Shown here: positions 10,548 through 20,908 of the stretch, in pieces | Position numbering within the stretch: position 1 is the first letter of the stretch | How the letters are laid out: every line of letters begins with the position of its first letter | Assembly (NCBI GenBank): GCA_021157815.1 | Contig: JAGGVT010000008.1 | Span: 1 to 38,078, forward strand | Reading direction: 5' to 3' | DNA: 38,078 nucleotides | Origin: a bacterium | Lineage (GTDB): Bacteria > JAJVIF01 > JAGGVT01 | Notes under the pieces: model-generated | What the model saw: only the letters and a program-made list of their open reading frames with translations | What the model was told of the DNA's origin: nothing | The model's database searches: none | Made by a program: the position numbers and the translations under genes

Positions 10548-10745
10548 TTATCCGCCACTAATTAAATGAAAAACTTTGATTTTGTCGTTGTCGTTGATGA
10601 TGTGCTTGTCGAGATGCTTTTGCTCTATCACTTTGCCGTTTACGGATACGATAACGAGAGGAAATGAGTATTTAACCTCGTTCATGGCGTCGCGTACAGT
10701 CATGCCATCGCGCCATTCTATCTTTTCCTCGTTAATCTGAATCAT
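10548..10745 (-). CDS. ThiS/MoaD-like sulfur carrier protein of the AOR locus
   Basis: This 65-residue ubiquitin-fold protein ends in Gly-Gly (HLISGG), the tail that is adenylated and thiocarboxylated in ThiS and MoaD. The pattern IQINEEKIEW at the start, SVNGKVIEQKHLDKHIINDNDKIKV in the middle and the C-terminal GG fit the family at normal length. Its ATG overlaps the stop of the upstream thiF-like gene by four bases (ATGA), indicating translational coupling. Placed last in a locus for a tungsten enzyme, it most likely feeds sulfur to pterin cofactor synthesis rather than to thiamine; no other thiamine genes are present. A general ThiS role cannot be excluded. Confidence 0.85.
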   Translation of the reverse strand: MIQINEEKIEWRDGMTVRDAMNEVKYSFPLVIVSVNGKVIEQKHLDKHIINDNDKIKVFHLISGG

Positions 10746-11374
10746 TTTAGCTCCAGCAGATATTCGACTGCAAGCGATGCCTGCATCGATGCGACCATCA
10801 CAACTTTTGGCGCCATGAGCCCGGCATCCGGATTGCTTTTGAAATCGCCGACAATAATTAGATTTTCCATTTTGTTGATTTGGATTTTATCGATATTGCC
10901 CGTACCTGCCAGCCCTGATGCGGCAATCAGGAGTTTGTTGTTTTGCAGTCCTGTCCAGGTGTCGATCAACATAGATTTATTCTCCGCTTTGTCGAATGCC
11001 TCGATTAGAACATCGACGTTGCTGAATACATCAGGGATATTCTCCGGTGTTAGATTTACATTCACAGGTTGATAGTTGATTTTCGGATTGATTCTCTTGA
11101 TTGTATCACCAAGAGCATCGACCTTGAGCTTGCCAATCTGGTCGATGAAGAAATGCTGTCGGTTTAGATTTTCGGGTGCTACTGTATCGAAATCGGCGAC
11201 AATGAGTTTCCCGACACCGGCGCGCGCGAGCAATACCGCGATATTCGAGCCGAGTCCGCCGCACCCCGCGATTCCGGCACATTTCGTTTTCAGAATGGGA
11301 AAAGAACCCGGAGCGTTCCGGGCATAAATTACTATTTCAGCTACTTCCGGCATTTCAGGATTATGATTCGTCAT
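10742..11374 (-). CDS. ThiF/MoeB-family adenylyltransferase (E1-like)
   Basis: This 210-residue protein adenylates the C-terminal glycine of its sulfur carrier with ATP. The nucleotide-binding loop is GCGGLGSNIAVLLARAGVG, followed by the conserved LIVADFDTVAPENLNRQHF (Asp and Asn/Arg/Gln for Mg-ATP). It is a short form: the paired CxxC zinc site and the catalytic Cys of full-length MoeB are absent, as in the short ThiF proteins that work with ThiS. The start ATG shares one base with the stop of the AOR C-terminal gene (TGATG), and its own end overlaps the ThiS-like gene, so the three form one operon. The likely job is activation of the 65-aa carrier for tungstopterin dithiolene formation. Confidence 0.88.
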   Translation of the reverse strand: MTNHNPEMPEVAEIVIYARNAPGSFPILKTKCAGIAGCGGLGSNIAVLLARAGVGKLIVADFDTVAPENLNRQHFFIDQIGKLKVDALGDTIKRINPKINYQPVNVNLTPENIPDVFSNVDVLIEAFDKAENKSMLIDTWTGLQNNKLLIAASGLAGTGNIDKIQINKMENLIIVGDFKSNPDAGLMAPKVVMVASMQASLAVEYLLELK

Positions 11375-13356
11375 CAGACATCCGGGTATCGCTTGACAAC
11401 CTCGACCACCTCGGGGAAATCAATCCCGAGTTTTTTCAGTGTTTCGAGTTTGGGTACGCCGTCCGATGTCCAGCCTCGCCGTTTGTAAACAGCGTCCTGA
11501 AGCTGGCGGTATTGGTCTTCGCGATATTCGCGGAGTTTCAGGCGTTTTTCATCGGTGCTCATGGATTCGGGGTCAATGCCGACTTTTTCCTTGAGTTGCT
11601 TGTCGTATCGCTCCTGCCGTGATTCATATTCCGTATTGGTGACAGGGCCCATTGCGCGGTAGGGAACTCTGTCGTGTTCACGGGTGCCATAGCCGAGCCG
11701 CAGGTTGAATACTCGTTGGAAGTTATAGACTTTTTCCGACATGCGAATCAGCTTGTCCGAATCGAGTTCGATTCCTGTCATGCCTGTGAAATATTTGCAG
11801 TAACCCTCGACATGCTCCGGTATTTTGTGGGGTTCATCTGTCTGGGCGTTATCAGCGGGGGAGATATCATTCCACGGCAGCTTGCATAGTCCGACAAGCC
11901 CGAACCAAGTGCGGAACATCGGAAAATAGTGGAGCGCGTCCGCTTTATTCTCGAAAGTCGGAATCTGGTTGTTTACCTGGTCCATGAAAATCAGCCACGC
12001 CTCATCGTGCTGGGCGCCTTTGTTTGTCATGCAGTATCCGCCCTGCTGCGCGAGAGATTCCTTTGTAACATATTCGGAAAATTCCAGCCCCTTATTTTCC
12101 ATTCCGATATCCTCGACAAAATCGAGGTCAGCGCCGTATTCCTCAATAAAGAGTTTTTTCATATTGCGAATACCCTTGCCAAGAATCATTCCAAAACCCT
12201 CGCCGCGGCTCATCTGATGCAGAACCTCACATGCCGCTTCTTTGTTTCCGAAAGTCAATTCAAGCCCGCCGGTATGTTCCTTTGTGATAACGCCGTTTTC
12301 GTAACATTCCATGGCGAAAGCGAGAGCTGTTCCGAATGAGATTGTGTCTATTCCGTATGTGTCGCAGTAGAAGTTAAGTTCCGCGACATAATGGGGGTCG
12401 AAGTTGCCAATGTTGGAGCCACATGCGGCGATTGTTTCATACTCGGGACCATCAACGAGAACTTTCCGGCCTTTGTATGGGCCTGTTTTGAGTTCGAATT
12501 TTTCGATTGCATGAGCGCATGACATCGAGCATCCGTACCAGCAGCCATCGGGAAGTCCCTGCGTGAAATATTCATTCTGCCATACCCATGAATTTATTTT
12601 CTTGGCGTTTTCATGGCTGCCGTACTGGTAGTTGAGGGTTGGGAGGAGATCGTAATCATCCATTATTTCCACAAGGTTGCCGGTGCCGATTTTTCTCATT
12701 CGGCACTGCTGGTCATCGAGAGTAATCATTTGGCTGGTTACTTTCATTCCCCAGTTTCTAATCATTTTTGGTCTGACGGGATGATTTGCTTCATTGGTTA
12801 CTTGAATCGCGCCGGTCGGACAAACCCATGCGCAAGCGCCGCATCCTGCGCAGCGTTCATAGAATTTATCGAAAGGCATTGAAACTTTTCGCTCCGCGCC
12901 CCTGCCTGCAAATGTAATTATATCTTCCCAGATGCCCTCAGAGCATACACGGACACATCGTCCGCACAGGACACATGCGTTTTTAGATTCGTTTTTCAGG
13001 GGATGTTCATAGCGTGGCTTGTCAACGCCGTTTGCTTTCGCGAGCGCTTTGATTGCGGGAACATTGGGCCATCGCGCGAGGTGCATTTCAATCACACCGC
13101 GACGGGTATTCAGGGCTTCCTCTGAATCAGTGAATACCGCAATGGGTTCATGAATCTCATAGTTGCATGATGTTGTGATTTCCTTTTCGCCGTTGGCGTG
13201 AACCTCAACGACACACATTCTGCATGCGCCGTACGGTTTAAGGATATTATGGTTGCACAGCGCCGGGATTTTTATTCCAAGTGATTCCGCGGCGGCAAGA
13301 ATGGTAGTGCCTTCCTCGACGCTTATTTTCCTTTTGTTTATGGTTATCTCTATCAT
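11374..13356 (-). CDS. NuoG-like iron-sulfur module fused to the C-terminal half of aldehyde:ferredoxin oxidoreductase
   Basis: This 660-residue protein is a fusion. Residues 1-80 are a plant-type [2Fe-2S] domain as in NuoG and NADH-linked hydrogenases (C34, C45, C48, C64). Residues 85-120 correspond to the NuoG His-Cys cluster domain, but its cysteines are gone (HLARWPNVPAIKALAKANG). Two [4Fe-4S] motifs follow: C128/131/134/138 and C169/172/175/179. From about residue 225 on it is AOR domains 2 and 3: LLPTLNYQYGS, cluster cysteines C272/C276/C280, GPEYETIAACGSN (the conserved Glu), the DTISFGTALAFAMECYENG signature, KGAQHDEAW (proton-donor His) and a final cluster Cys in GLCKLPW. AOR domain 1, which holds the tungstopterin, is absent here and is encoded by the gene at 15188-15955. 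AAGGAG precedes the ATG, 24 bp after the NuoEF-like gene. The inferred role is the cytoplasmic electron-transfer plus substrate half of a split AOR; the substrate is unknown. Confidence 0.9.
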   Translation of the reverse strand: MIEITINKRKISVEEGTTILAAAESLGIKIPALCNHNILKPYGACRMCVVEVHANGEKEITTSCNYEIHEPIAVFTDSEEALNTRRGVIEMHLARWPNVPAIKALAKANGVDKPRYEHPLKNESKNACVLCGRCVRVCSEGIWEDIITFAGRGAERKVSMPFDKFYERCAGCGACAWVCPTGAIQVTNEANHPVRPKMIRNWGMKVTSQMITLDDQQCRMRKIGTGNLVEIMDDYDLLPTLNYQYGSHENAKKINSWVWQNEYFTQGLPDGCWYGCSMSCAHAIEKFELKTGPYKGRKVLVDGPEYETIAACGSNIGNFDPHYVAELNFYCDTYGIDTISFGTALAFAMECYENGVITKEHTGGLELTFGNKEAACEVLHQMSRGEGFGMILGKGIRNMKKLFIEEYGADLDFVEDIGMENKGLEFSEYVTKESLAQQGGYCMTNKGAQHDEAWLIFMDQVNNQIPTFENKADALHYFPMFRTWFGLVGLCKLPWNDISPADNAQTDEPHKIPEHVEGYCKYFTGMTGIELDSDKLIRMSEKVYNFQRVFNLRLGYGTREHDRVPYRAMGPVTNTEYESRQERYDKQLKEKVGIDPESMSTDEKRLKLREYREDQYRQLQDAVYKRRGWTSDGVPKLETLKKLGIDFPEVVEVVKRYPDV

Positions 13357-13380
13357 TGTTTTCTCCTTGTCGGGTAAAGA

Positions 13381-14880
13381 TTAATTCTTGAAATATCCCG
13401 TGTAATCATCTTCAAAGTGTTTGATTGTGGAAAGTATCGAATTGCCGGCTGATTTGCCCAATCCTGAAAGGCTGGCCGCGGACATGGTTTCGCAGATTGA
13501 TTTCAGTGTGTCGAGGTCCTCTTTTTTGCCATTGCCCTGAGAGATATTTTCCAGGATGCTGAATAGAATTACAGAACCCTCACGGTCGGGTGCGGCTTTG
13601 CCGAAACATTCGCTTTTTAAAAACTCAATTGAATCTTTCGCTGCTTCCACCATGCACCTGCTGTTGTCGTAAACTCGAATCAAACCGGGACCTATAATTG
13701 ACCCCGCTTTTTCGATTTCAGCGTAATCGAGCGGTGTGTCGAGCATATCGGCAGGGAAACATCCACCGGATGGCCCTCCGACCTGAACAGCTTTGAATTC
13801 CCGTCCCTCGGGGATACCGCCGCCGATATCGAAGATTAACTCGCGAAGAGTGATTCCCAGCGGCACCTCGACAAATCCGGAGTTTACAATATCTCCAACC
13901 AGTGAAACTACCTTCGTGCCTGAGTTGCCGATTTTTTTGAACGCATCCCCGCCCTTTTCGATAATCACAGGGACATTCATCCATGTTTCAACGCAGCTTA
14001 AAACTGTCGGCATGTCCTTGTAGCCTTTTTCTGTTAACGGTACATTTGATGCCGTTGGGATAGCTGGCTTGCCCTGAAGGGATTCAAGCATCGCGCTTAA
14101 ATCGAGATTCATGTACGCGCCGGGGCCTCGTCGAATTTTAATATCGAACGAGAAATCCTTTCCCTTTATATTTTCACCAAGCAGTTTTTTTGCTCTGGCG
14201 TCCTCGATTGCTTCAGCCATTTGTTCGATTGCCTGTGAATAACAATTTCTGATGTGGATTATTCCCTCTTTCGCGCCTACTGCATACGCGCAGATCAACA
14301 TGCCCTCGATAATTGAGTGCGGGTCTGATTCGACAATGTTTTTATATGCGAATGCTCCGGGTATGCCCTCGTCAGCATTGCAGATTACATACGCCGGGTT
14401 GGATGAATCGTTAACTGCTTTTGCGCACGCTTTCCATTTGTCGGCGGTGGGGTTGCCGAAACCGCATCGACCGAGAAGCCCTGATTTTTCCACCTCGGAA
14501 ATCACATCATCCGGGGACATTGTTTCAAGAACTTTTTCGAAGGATTTGTATTCGCCAGCATCGGCATTGCCCATGTTGCGAAACACAATCGATGGAGCAT
14601 CCGGTTTTGATGGAATCCGTTTATCATTCTGCTGTTTCATGAATGCTTCGATTGGTTTTTGGGGAAGTTCATCTTCCGATGGCTCAAGTGTGAAAACATC
14701 ATAGAATGTACCCACAAAATAGAGTTGTCCCAGCGGAACTTCGATTTCATCCGCGATGTATCTGACAACATCCTCAGGAAGATGCTTGAATTCATCCTGA
14801 ATATCGAGGAGCATTTCGATTGCGCAATCGGCATCTCGATTGTAACTCTCTATGATTTTATTTATTTTTGCGGTATCCAT
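13381..14880 (-). CDS. NuoE/NuoF-like fusion lacking the usual cofactor ligands
   Basis: This encodes 499 residues. Residues 1-68 match the helical N-terminus of NuoE (LLDIQDEFKHLPEDVVRYIA, GTFYDVFTLEP), but the [2Fe-2S] thioredoxin-like half with four Cys is missing. From about residue 97 it follows NuoF end to end: SPDDVISEVEKSGLLGR, ICNADEGIPGAFAYKN, DPHSIIEGMLICAYAVGA, SLBB-like LFDIGGGIPEGR and the C-terminal four-helix bundle. Key motifs are altered: the FMN loop GRGGAGFPT is GRCGFGNPT (137-145), the NADH-site GAYICGEET is GAYMNLDLS, and the N3 cluster motif CGKCxPCREG is CFGKAAPDREG (one Cys, C425), with the fourth ligand replaced by S472. It therefore probably cannot hold the N3 cluster or bind NADH normally. 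It lies 24 bp upstream of the AOR C-terminal gene with GGAG before ATG. A structural or flavin-only subunit of the AOR complex is inferred. Confidence 0.85.
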   Translation of the reverse strand: MDTAKINKIIESYNRDADCAIEMLLDIQDEFKHLPEDVVRYIADEIEVPLGQLYFVGTFYDVFTLEPSEDELPQKPIEAFMKQQNDKRIPSKPDAPSIVFRNMGNADAGEYKSFEKVLETMSPDDVISEVEKSGLLGRCGFGNPTADKWKACAKAVNDSSNPAYVICNADEGIPGAFAYKNIVESDPHSIIEGMLICAYAVGAKEGIIHIRNCYSQAIEQMAEAIEDARAKKLLGENIKGKDFSFDIKIRRGPGAYMNLDLSAMLESLQGKPAIPTASNVPLTEKGYKDMPTVLSCVETWMNVPVIIEKGGDAFKKIGNSGTKVVSLVGDIVNSGFVEVPLGITLRELIFDIGGGIPEGREFKAVQVGGPSGGCFPADMLDTPLDYAEIEKAGSIIGPGLIRVYDNSRCMVEAAKDSIEFLKSECFGKAAPDREGSVILFSILENISQGNGKKEDLDTLKSICETMSAASLSGLGKSAGNSILSTIKHFEDDYTGYFKN

Positions 14881-14894
14881 TTATGATCTCCGTG

Positions 14895-14916
14895 ACAAGA
14901 GGCATAAGCCGCTTGT
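14895..14916 (-). promoter_or_regulatory. Hairpin in the leader of the NuoEF-like gene
   Basis: ACAAGAGG and CCGCTTGT form an 8-bp stem (one mismatch) around CATAAG, just upstream of the GGAG ribosome binding site. It could affect translation of the operon, but it may be chance. I see no match to the molybdenum/tungsten cofactor riboswitch. Confidence 0.25.
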
Positions 14917-15017
14917 TAGATATTTGTATTTATCAGGCATAAATCGAATTTGAATACCGAATCGTTCTATCCGTAAAAAGAGGACAGTCCATATAGGGCT
15001 TCAAATCTGACGTTATC

Positions 15018-15026
15018 AATATACCA
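15018..15026 (-). promoter_or_regulatory. Candidate extended -10 promoter for the NuoEF/AOR-C/thiF/thiS operon
   Basis: The minus strand reads TGGTATATT in the 307-bp gap between the AOR N-domain gene and the NuoEF-like gene. The implied leader is about 130 nt. The -35 box is not evident. Confidence 0.3.
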
Positions 15027-15117
15027 TGCTGCAAACTCTCATTTTATACAGTACTTATTCACTTGGTTGGGACAATCCCCTTTTTACTACCATCGTGCAA
15101 AATTCTCAGTTTCCCAT

Positions 15118-15162
15118 GGGTGCCGCCCACACATCACGTCTTTTTGTGATTTGTGGGTGAAA
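15118..15162. repeat. Copy 1 (left part) of the GGGTGCCGCCCA element
   Basis: Forty-five bases starting GGGTGCCGCCCACACATCAC are identical to 30020-30064. Internally CCCACA-ATCAC and GTGAT-TGTGGG can pair around GTCTTTTT. The closing arm TGGGCGGCACCC found in copy 2 is missing here, so this copy looks truncated. It sits in the gap between two AOR-locus genes. Confidence 0.8.
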
Positions 15163-15187
15163 TGCAAAACTTCGTATCTATCACACA

Positions 15188-15955
15188 CTAATCAGCAGTA
15201 ATCGACCAATCCGGTTTCCATTTGTCGCATCTGATTGCCAGAGCGAGTATTTTCTTGTCGCGGAAAACAGTGCCGATACCGCCGCGTCCCGCTTGTTTGT
15301 ATCGCGCTTCTTTCCTGCGCCAGTCGTAATATGAAAAATTTAGAATTCCGAAATATGTGTGAGCAGCGCCGCTTCCCGCAGCGACTACAGCGATATACTG
15401 GCGGCCATCCTTGTTTGGCGCGAGTTGTTCAGTCAGTTTGTTGCATATCAGATGCGCATCGTCGCAGGTGGCGTTTATCTCCCGGACGCTCACATGATTT
15501 TCCACACCATCAATAAATATCATGACATCCTTTTCAGCTTTGCCGGTAATCGCGATGGCGTCAAAACCGGAGAATTTGAGGAACGGACCGAAATAGCCGC
15601 CGACATTTGAATCTATTGCGACATTGGTCAGCGGTGAAATTGAGGTAACCAGCGATTTGCCTGAGCCGGGATAGCTTGTCGTTCCGCCAAGCGGCCCTGA
15701 TGAAATGCAAATCGCGTTTTCCGGTGAATCCCATTTTGTGCCATCGTTGACAATATCCCACATCAGTTTGAGGTCGAATCCTTTACCGCCGATGAATATT
15801 TCCTTCATTTCATCGGTAACGGGTTTTGTTTCGATGCTCTTCTTGCCAAGGTCGATTTGCAGAGTGCGGTTGGCATAGCCCTTTTCCAGTTTGACAGGTT
15901 CGTAGGGAAATTTAACAAGTTCCTGTCCCAGGTTGATTTTAAATTCGTCGTTCAT
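15188..15955 (-). CDS. Stand-alone N-terminal domain of aldehyde:ferredoxin oxidoreductase
   Basis: These 255 residues correspond to AOR domain 1, the beta-rich domain that cradles the bis-tungstopterin. Matching landmarks are YANRTLQIDLGKKS near residue 26, IFIGGKGFDLKLMWDI, SSGPLGGTTSYPGSGK, the SPLTNVAIDSNVGGYFGPFLKFSGFD core that contacts the pterin, and the closing QAGRGGIGTVFRDKK. The protein ends where domain 2 would begin; no domain 2/3 or cluster cysteines are present, and these are encoded 1.8 kb downstream in the same direction. The ATG at 15955 has GAGG a few bases upstream. There is no frameshift that would simply join it to the downstream gene, because a complete NuoEF-like gene stands between. 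It is inferred to assemble with the Fd-AOR C-terminal protein into one active enzyme. Confidence 0.9.
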   Translation of the reverse strand: MNDEFKINLGQELVKFPYEPVKLEKGYANRTLQIDLGKKSIETKPVTDEMKEIFIGGKGFDLKLMWDIVNDGTKWDSPENAICISSGPLGGTTSYPGSGKSLVTSISPLTNVAIDSNVGGYFGPFLKFSGFDAIAITGKAEKDVMIFIDGVENHVSVREINATCDDAHLICNKLTEQLAPNKDGRQYIAVVAAGSGAAHTYFGILNFSYYDWRRKEARYKQAGRGGIGTVFRDKKILALAIRCDKWKPDWSITAD

Positions 15956-19636: not shown

Positions 19637-20839
19637 TTAATTTTCCGGCACAAGTTCTTTTACCTTACCAGCCACGAGTTTTCCCAGCTGGACACATGCT
19701 TTCAAATCATCCTGATTTGGAATGTATTTGATTCTTACGCCATCGTCCACGATATCGAAATTCATATCGAGCATCCACTGGTTGAGGATTTTAACCGCCT
19801 CGCCGCCCCAGCCGTACGAGCCGAACGCAGCGCCGATTTTATCTTTCGGGCGAAGGCCTTTGATATATGTCAACGAATCCGCGACTGATGGCAAAATTCC
19901 GTTGTTGAGTGTTGGAGAGCCAAAGATAACAGCTTTGGCATCGAGAATTTCGGTTATGACCTCGCTTCGATGCGTGCTGCTCAGATTAAGCGATTTTACC
20001 TCGATTCTCTCCTCTACAAGACCGCGCTCAATCGATTTTGCCATCATATCTGTACTGCCCCACATTGTGCCGTAAACAATAACCGCTTTTCTTTTTGCTT
20101 TCTGCAGCGCCCATTTGCGGTATGCGGCAAGGATTTTATCGATATGAGTTCGCCAGATTACGCCGTGGTCAGTCGCGAGAATTTCCGGTTTGATATTCAA
20201 CTCAGTTACAAAATCAAGAAACTTAATGGCCACTGGTGAATACGGCAGGATGATATTGGCATAATATTTGGCGGATTCGAACATGAGATTGTCAAAGGAA
20301 ACCTCATCGTCGAAACGTTCGTTCATTGCCCAATGCTGTCCGAAAATGTCATTTGATATAAGGACTTTATCCTCCTGTAAATATGAGCACATGCTGTCGG
20401 GCCAGTGAAGCATGCGGGATTCGAGGAATTTAATCGTTCTTTTCCCGATGCTGATTTCATCGCCGGTCTTGACAATTTCAAGCGGTAAATCAAGATTATG
20501 GAAATGCCCGCGGATTGCCTTTTCACCCATTGGTGAACAGAATACTTTTTCAGGTTTTACCAGCGCGACAATATCCGGCAGGCATCCAGAATGATCAAGC
20601 TCGACATGGTCAATTACAAGATAGTCTATCTTTTCAGGATTAATCACATTCTTGATGTTATCCACCAATTCGTCCATAAATCCTTTTTTGACCGTATCAA
20701 ATAAAACGGTTTTGTCATCGACAACGAGATAGGAGTTATATGTCGTCCCATGGGGAATTTCATATCCGTGGAAGTCGCGAATATCCCAGTCAATCGCTCC
20801 CACCCAGTATATATCTTTTTTGATTTCAACTGATGCCAT
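19637..20839 (-). CDS. fprA: Flavodiiron protein (type A flavoprotein), O2/NO reductase
   Basis: I place the start at the ATG at 20839 because AGGAG sits just upstream (CAGGAGAAACAAC); a longer frame to 20908 would lack an RBS and overlap the promoter. The 400 residues contain a metallo-beta-lactamase-fold diiron domain with all ligands visible (HVELDH, then MLHWPDSM, NDIFGQHW and ATDHGVIWR), followed by a flavodoxin domain with the FMN phosphate loop YGTMWGSTDMM and the isoalloxazine loop GSYGWGGEAV. These proteins reduce O2 to water, or NO to N2O, with electrons from rubredoxin or F420, protecting anaerobes. No rubredoxin gene is nearby. A frameshifted relative of its C-terminus lies on the far side of the peptidase gene. 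Confidence 0.96.
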   Translation of the reverse strand: MASVEIKKDIYWVGAIDWDIRDFHGYEIPHGTTYNSYLVVDDKTVLFDTVKKGFMDELVDNIKNVINPEKIDYLVIDHVELDHSGCLPDIVALVKPEKVFCSPMGEKAIRGHFHNLDLPLEIVKTGDEISIGKRTIKFLESRMLHWPDSMCSYLQEDKVLISNDIFGQHWAMNERFDDEVSFDNLMFESAKYYANIILPYSPVAIKFLDFVTELNIKPEILATDHGVIWRTHIDKILAAYRKWALQKAKRKAVIVYGTMWGSTDMMAKSIERGLVEERIEVKSLNLSSTHRSEVITEILDAKAVIFGSPTLNNGILPSVADSLTYIKGLRPKDKIGAAFGSYGWGGEAVKILNQWMLDMNFDIVDDGVRIKYIPNQDDLKACVQLGKLVAGKVKELVPEN

Positions 20840-20879
20840 GTTGTTTCTCCTGAAAGGATACATATAAGAGGGTATTAAG

Positions 20880-20908
20880 TATATAGCATATTGTTTTGGT
20901 TTGTTCAA
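20880..20908 (-). promoter_or_regulatory. Promoter of the flavodiiron gene
   Basis: On the minus strand TTGAAC (20903-20908) and TATATA (20880-20885) are 17 bp apart, with TGC directly before the -10 (extended -10). The leader would be about 34 nt. This is the best two-box promoter in the window. Confidence 0.6.

Follow-up and report, generated by a model that had tools for sequence, protein, structure and literature searches.

The catalytic subunits (WorL) of tungsten oxidoreductases (WORs) of the aldehyde:ferredoxin oxidoreductase (AOR) family were grouped into five classes using 4,064 WorL sequences, all chosen for having both AOR domains (PMC13328260). Four PfAOR positions, T243, E313, Y427 and H448, vary little in the aldehyde-oxidising WORs and lie near the cofactor (PMC13328260). 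Class II consists of WorL, as one chain of about 710-730 aa, and an often separate WorS with four [4Fe-4S] clusters. Class IV consists of WorL and WorS joined to separate WorA, WorB and WorC (PMC13328260); an example is the bifurcating WorABCSL of Acetomicrobium mobile (PDB 9mqx), in which a single-chain WorL is combined with NuoE/NuoF/NuoG-type proteins (WorC/B/A). In the accessible sections of PMC9304861, enzymes of Type 1 Bfu (hydrogenase, Nfn, Fdh and F420) have the catalytic domain fused to BfuA and no WOR member is described among them, WOR is listed as Type 2 with separate subunits, and the BfuBC core is called invariant. An AOR-fold catalytic subunit linked to NuoEFG-like proteins is also present in benzoyl-CoA reductase (BamBC with BamGHI), where BamB is a single chain. 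The AOR-MoaD-MoeB gene neighbourhood has been described since 2006 (PMC1779556). For the expression of WORs, Eubacterium limosum has served as host (PMC13328260). In the published cases found in the open-access literature the enzyme was always one protein, and neither a split AOR nor biochemistry of the split clade presented here was found there, most subscription papers and preprints being outside the search.

The window analysed is the whole of contig JAGGVT010000008.1 (38,078 nucleotides), one contig of the 221-contig draft genome GCA_021157815.1 (3.2 Mb, 91% complete; GTDB lineage Bacteria; JAJVIF01; JAGGVT01). The locus described below is the sole AOR_C match of this genome. Its five ORFs are all open, lie on the minus strand and have the same boundaries as in the original prediction, which was made from the sequence alone. 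AOR domain 1, the tungstopterin-binding N-terminal domain, is encoded as a separate 255-aa protein (15188..15955), which was the only one to match AFOR_N (E=7.8e-46) in the Pfam search. It is followed by a spacer of 307 bases without a plausible gene (14881..15187) and by a degenerate NuoE::NuoF-like protein of 499 aa (13381..14880), identified by matches to Complex1_51K, NADH_4Fe-4S and part of 2Fe-2S_thioredx and by alignment with intact relatives. The next gene (11374..13356) encodes a fusion protein of 660 aa, in which AFOR_C (E=9e-102) is preceded by Fer2_4 and two 4Fe-4S domains. Residues 1-187 (12796..13356) were assigned to a NuoG/HydA/BfuA-type iron-sulfur module using the cysteines and a PDB sequence match, and residues 191-660 (11377..12786) to AOR domains 2-3 using the 1AOR alignment and a structural match. 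The locus ends with a ThiF family-2 adenylyltransferase (10742..11374; NF006395, 231 bits, above cut-off) and a WorX-like ThiS/MoaD-like sulfur carrier with a GG end (10548..10745; TIGR01683, 55 bits).

The layout originally predicted, with a separate domain 1 gene, domains 2-3 behind a NuoG-type module of one [2Fe-2S] and two [4Fe-4S] clusters, and NuoEF between them, was thus confirmed by the ORFs and the Pfam search. The claim that gene order and overlap point to one dedicated complex was kept in part. The locus is conserved as one unit, but the overlap argument is limited to the last three genes (1 base between ThiF and the 660-aa gene, 4 bases between ThiS and ThiF) because the spacer parts domain 1 from the NuoEF-like gene. 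A riboswitch was rejected, as Rfam gave no match in the spacer or upstream, and promoter sites were rarer than in shuffles. Near the locus, the window encodes a flavodiiron-type protein (19637-20908, minus strand; ODP beta-lactamase plus flavodoxin), which fits an oxygen-coping anaerobe.

The two AOR proteins were compared with an intact WorL of 719 aa from a genome of another group (L028:6600-8759). Domain 1 of the window is 52% identical to residues 1-256 of this WorL, and the AOR part of the 660-aa protein is about 62% identical to it from about residue 247-252 onward. Because both parts of the reference match proteins of the window, the window holds a whole normal WorL cut at the domain 1/2 border, with NuoEF and the NuoG module sitting between the halves. 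Judged by these alignments, the two AOR proteins complement each other as halves of a WorL that is normally a single chain. Structure models were separate single-chain predictions of the 255-aa and 660-aa proteins. The AlphaFold model of domain 1 (pLDDT 90, pTM 0.90) matched AOR-family chains only, over chain residues 1 to about 215 (VIA Z 19-23). The 660-aa model, which has low confidence in the 4Fe-4S region of its NuoG-type part, matched AOR structures over chain residues of about 203-619 (highest Z, 28). The AOR body would be assembled from two chains.

Residues T225, E307, Y429 and H450 of the 660-aa protein correspond to PfAOR T243, E313, Y427 and H448, as mapped by hand from the 1AOR alignment. 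The AOR [4Fe-4S] cysteines are C272, C276, C280 and C491, the last being assigned as fourth ligand from its position in GLC and not from the 1AOR alignment. These cysteines and the four active-site residues are invariant across 46 aligned rows, and the first cluster spacing is CX3C throughout the clade, compared with CX2C in PfAOR. In the NuoG-type module, the [2Fe-2S] ligands are C34, C45, C48 and C64 and the [4Fe-4S] cysteines are C128, C131, C134, C138 and C169, C172, C175, C179; all twelve are invariant in 8 fused homologues. The window therefore encodes a BfuA-type module with ligands for one [2Fe-2S] and two [4Fe-4S] clusters. The best PDB sequence match of this module is 9mqx_A (2.9e-33), WorA of the A. 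mobile bifurcating WOR.

Compared with the described systems, the locus carries both domains of the WOR/AOR family (AFOR_N and AFOR_C), yet on two chains and not on the same chain as in the PMC13328260 classification. It belongs to the same AOR clade as the Class II WORs (intact clade L028, L036-L108), with about 50-60% identity in domain 1, about 65% in domains 2-3, the same residues, and ThiS often near; the Class II worL cluster, unlike the split locus, has no NuoG module, NuoE or NuoF. As in Class IV, an AOR unit is combined with NuoE/NuoF/NuoG-type proteins, but a single protein holds the WorA-type module and AOR domains 2-3, domain 1 is a protein of its own, and the WorB/C equivalents of the window are without clusters. 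A separate WorS with four [4Fe-4S] clusters is absent from the split loci examined, and complete WorB and WorC are absent from the window and present in most relatives. The catalytic domain lies behind BfuA, replacing the H-cluster domain, as in the Type 1 Bfu enzymes treated in the accessible sections of PMC9304861 (FeFe-HydABC, Fdh-, Nfn- and F420-Bfu); unlike in these, the catalytic unit needs a second chain and BfuBC is degenerate (window) or absent (L153). The aldehyde-type T/E/Y/H residues are kept, which disfavours a benzoyl-CoA reductase. The split WOR fits none of the classes of PMC13328260 or of the Bfu types in the accessible sections of PMC9304861.

In a scan of 84,980 species genomes, seven further NuoG-AOR_C fusions were found among the matches listed, with the record labels Cloacimonadota/Cloacimonetes (3), Armatimonadota (1), Deltaproteobacteria (2) and Elusimicrobia (1). 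The other 73 loci among the matches listed have an ordinary-form WorL of this clade; contig ends truncate a few of them. All seven genomes encode a close match to domain 1 separately from the fusion protein, followed by NuoE and NuoF where the contig is long enough. Of 385 genomes in a spread sample, 6, including the source genome, had the fusion and 21 the intact form. The fusion was present in 24 of 42 genomes of one phylum if partial contigs and a single frameshifted copy are included. About 35 other genomes share the split order (Cloacimonadota, Armatimonadota, Deltaproteobacteria, Elusimicrobia and further lineages), a number that is approximate because the genome sets may overlap. The arrangement recurs beyond chance, in many uncultured bacteria that are not related to one another. 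The expectation stated with the original prediction, that the architecture is rare rather than unique, was borne out.

The same order is seen in L029-L035 where contigs allow, in L150-L152 and in L177-L180. Domain 1 is tied to the complex because it is fused to NuoE (L035, L151, L152) or to NuoE-NuoF (L154) in four relatives. In L153, domain 1 ends 8 bases before the NuoG-AOR_C gene, giving the same order without NuoE and NuoF. Of the compared loci, 41 have WorS upstream, with no split locus among them, and no WorS-like ORF was found in any split locus examined. One split locus, L176 (G415:C4:184500-189500), has frame breaks in NuoF and in the AOR_C part and is either a pseudogene or a sequencing error.

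The 499-aa protein is composed of the N-terminal helical part of NuoE (about residues 6-68) and the body of NuoF (about 106-494). The [2Fe-2S] half of NuoE, the N-terminal [2Fe-2S] domain of NuoF, the four [4Fe-4S] cysteines and the C-terminal ferredoxin domain are missing, and the FMN and NADH motifs are altered in the alignment with intact relatives. GRGGGGFPTG of the intact relatives is GRCGFGNPTA in the window, GAGAFVCGES/EETAL is GPGAYMNLDLSAM, ESCGKCTPCREG is SECFGKAAPDREG, and SLCALG is SLSGLG, with the C-terminal 2x[4Fe-4S] gone. The six Fe-S clusters and FMN of a BfuBC core are therefore not found in the window. Their motifs are kept in L030, L033-L035 and L150-L152, together with the NADH motif and both terminal domains, [2Fe-2S] at the N-terminus and 2x[4Fe-4S] at the C-terminus. 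The FMN motif carries a deletion in L029 and L031, and L154 has lost the terminal domains. A working NADH module, as implied by the original prediction, was not upheld for the window, where the cofactor sites are gone. Because of this loss, NuoEF of the window would be at most a scaffold, and electrons would leave from the NuoG-type clusters. The open 499-codon frame and the identity of about 43-49% to intact NuoF speak for selection on the NuoEF fold. The NADH module is absent or degraded in some loci, yet the NuoG-module cysteines and the AOR residues are invariant in the aligned rows, and the constant core appears to be domain 1 plus NuoG-AOR_C.

The ThiS-like protein is the sole ThiS-family protein found when the source genome was searched. 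This GG-ending sulfur carrier and the E1-like enzyme adjoin the AOR gene; MoaD/ThiS and MoeB/ThiF beside AOR genes are a known pattern, and the original view of the pair as a special feature was not upheld. A pterin role is preferred for ThiS/ThiF, and a thiamine role disfavoured, because the source genome gave no ThiG above cut-off. MoaA-, MoaC-, MoeA-, MogA- and MobA/FdhD-like ORFs lie on another contig of the source genome (C102; L186 = G000:C102). A search of the 91% complete genome for MoaE found none, though the gene could lie in the missing 9%, so that cofactor synthesis is not fully accounted for. The split locus L150 adjoins TupA/TupB-like tungstate transporter genes and a WtpC-like ATPase, the one split locus where such a neighbour was annotated, with Tup-model scores that fall short of the curated cut-offs. 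Tungsten as the metal is suggested by the family, the pterin genes and the TupA/TupB-like genes at L150. Between 17 and 23 intact loci lie near SoxA/SoxB-like amino-acid oxidase subunits, a hint that the intact clade handles an aldehyde from amino-acid oxidation. This hint was not transferred to the split form because no split locus has such neighbours. Many of the intact relatives L036-L108 have these oxidase subunits and also a small ferredoxin-like protein beside them (e.g., L080:5389-6549, L048:3638-4741 and L040:1636-2142).

The locus is likely to encode an AOR with a two-chain active site whose electron link is the fused NuoG module; in the window, the partner is probably ferredoxin and not NADH. 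Domain 1 (255 aa) and domains 2-3 (the C-terminal 470 aa of the 660-aa protein) would form one AOR body enclosing a bis-pterin metal site, and the enzyme would oxidise an aldehyde or reduce an acid. By analogy with the families, electrons would leave the metal for the [4Fe-4S] cluster of domains 2-3 and move on into the fused NuoG-type module, which would substitute for WorS, the usual small subunit. Most relatives would extend this path into a complete NuoE/NuoF (HydBC/BfuBC-like) with predicted NAD(H) coupling, perhaps also with ferredoxin. In the window, NuoEF would probably act only as a scaffold, with electrons going from the NuoG-type clusters to ferredoxin or another carrier. ThiF and ThiS would provide the pterin sulfur. 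It is doubtful that the split itself is functional, with domain 1 as a detachable active-site half (for example, a pterin-loaded lid served by ThiS/ThiF) that allows assembly or switching in trans, and the NuoG-fused half as a reusable platform from which the NADH module is plugged or unplugged by lineage.

Other explanations were weighed against the two-chain AOR. An ordinary Class IV (Wor-Bfu) bifurcating WOR with rearranged genes, whose NuoEF in the window remains active with NADH and ferredoxin, would agree with the closeness of the NuoG module to A. mobile WorA and with the FMN, NADH and cluster motifs and C-terminal ferredoxin domain kept by NuoE/NuoF of most split relatives. It is improbable, however, given that NuoEF of the window is without Fe-S ligands and has altered FMN/NADH motifs, that L153 has neither NuoE nor NuoF, that L029 and L031 have the FMN-motif deletion, and that an absent WorS and a split WorL are unlike the definition in PMC13328260. 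A decaying pseudogene locus, in which the whole enzyme is dying in the source genome, could account for the cofactor loss of NuoEF and the spacer after domain 1, and a split locus elsewhere, L176, is broken by a frameshift or sequence error. The five open ORFs, the retention of every tested AOR and NuoG-module residue, the frame and NuoF identity kept by NuoEF, and the core kept in L153 make this quite improbable. It is scarcely conceivable that an assembly or sequencing artefact cut a normal worL gene; although the window spans one complete contig of a draft genome, the same junctions are present in about 35 other genomes, including the 24 of 42 in one phylum, and the junction carries different fusions in different relatives. 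Assembly error, named with the original prediction as what would overturn it, was answered by the same junctions in many independent genomes, and the artefact was rejected for the family on this recurrence.

If the two-chain AOR is correct, two polypeptides can together form a tungstopterin active site, which has until now been known only from one-chain enzymes, and a WOR can be connected to an electron module of the complex-I/hydrogenase type by fusing directly with it. Any survey that demands both AOR domains per chain overlooks the split group, as the selection rule of PMC13328260 would. The series of NADH modules (complete, partly deleted, ligand-free and absent) would offer a natural test of the role of NuoE/NuoF in electron bifurcation, and the locus would be a clear example of how inserting a module at the border between domains splits a gene.

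When closer intact outgroups were used, the split sequences were nested within the intact ones, which superseded the basal placement obtained in the first tree with very distant outgroups. Constraining the split rows to one clade gave lnL 29 above the free quick tree (p-AU 0.897), and in the NuoG-module tree 17 of 17 split rows fall on one side (support 97). The intact row L108 falls among the split rows with weak support (71). As the simplest reading of these trees, a single origin nested inside the intact clade, then transfer between phyla, is favoured. A HydC-HydB-HydA(N)-like cassette would have entered an intact worL at the junction of domains 1 and 2, probably once. A small cupin-like protein (about 92-111 aa) is repeatedly encoded downstream of the AOR locus, whether the AOR is intact or split (L028:8778-9056, L029:5764-6078 and L030:8245-8577).
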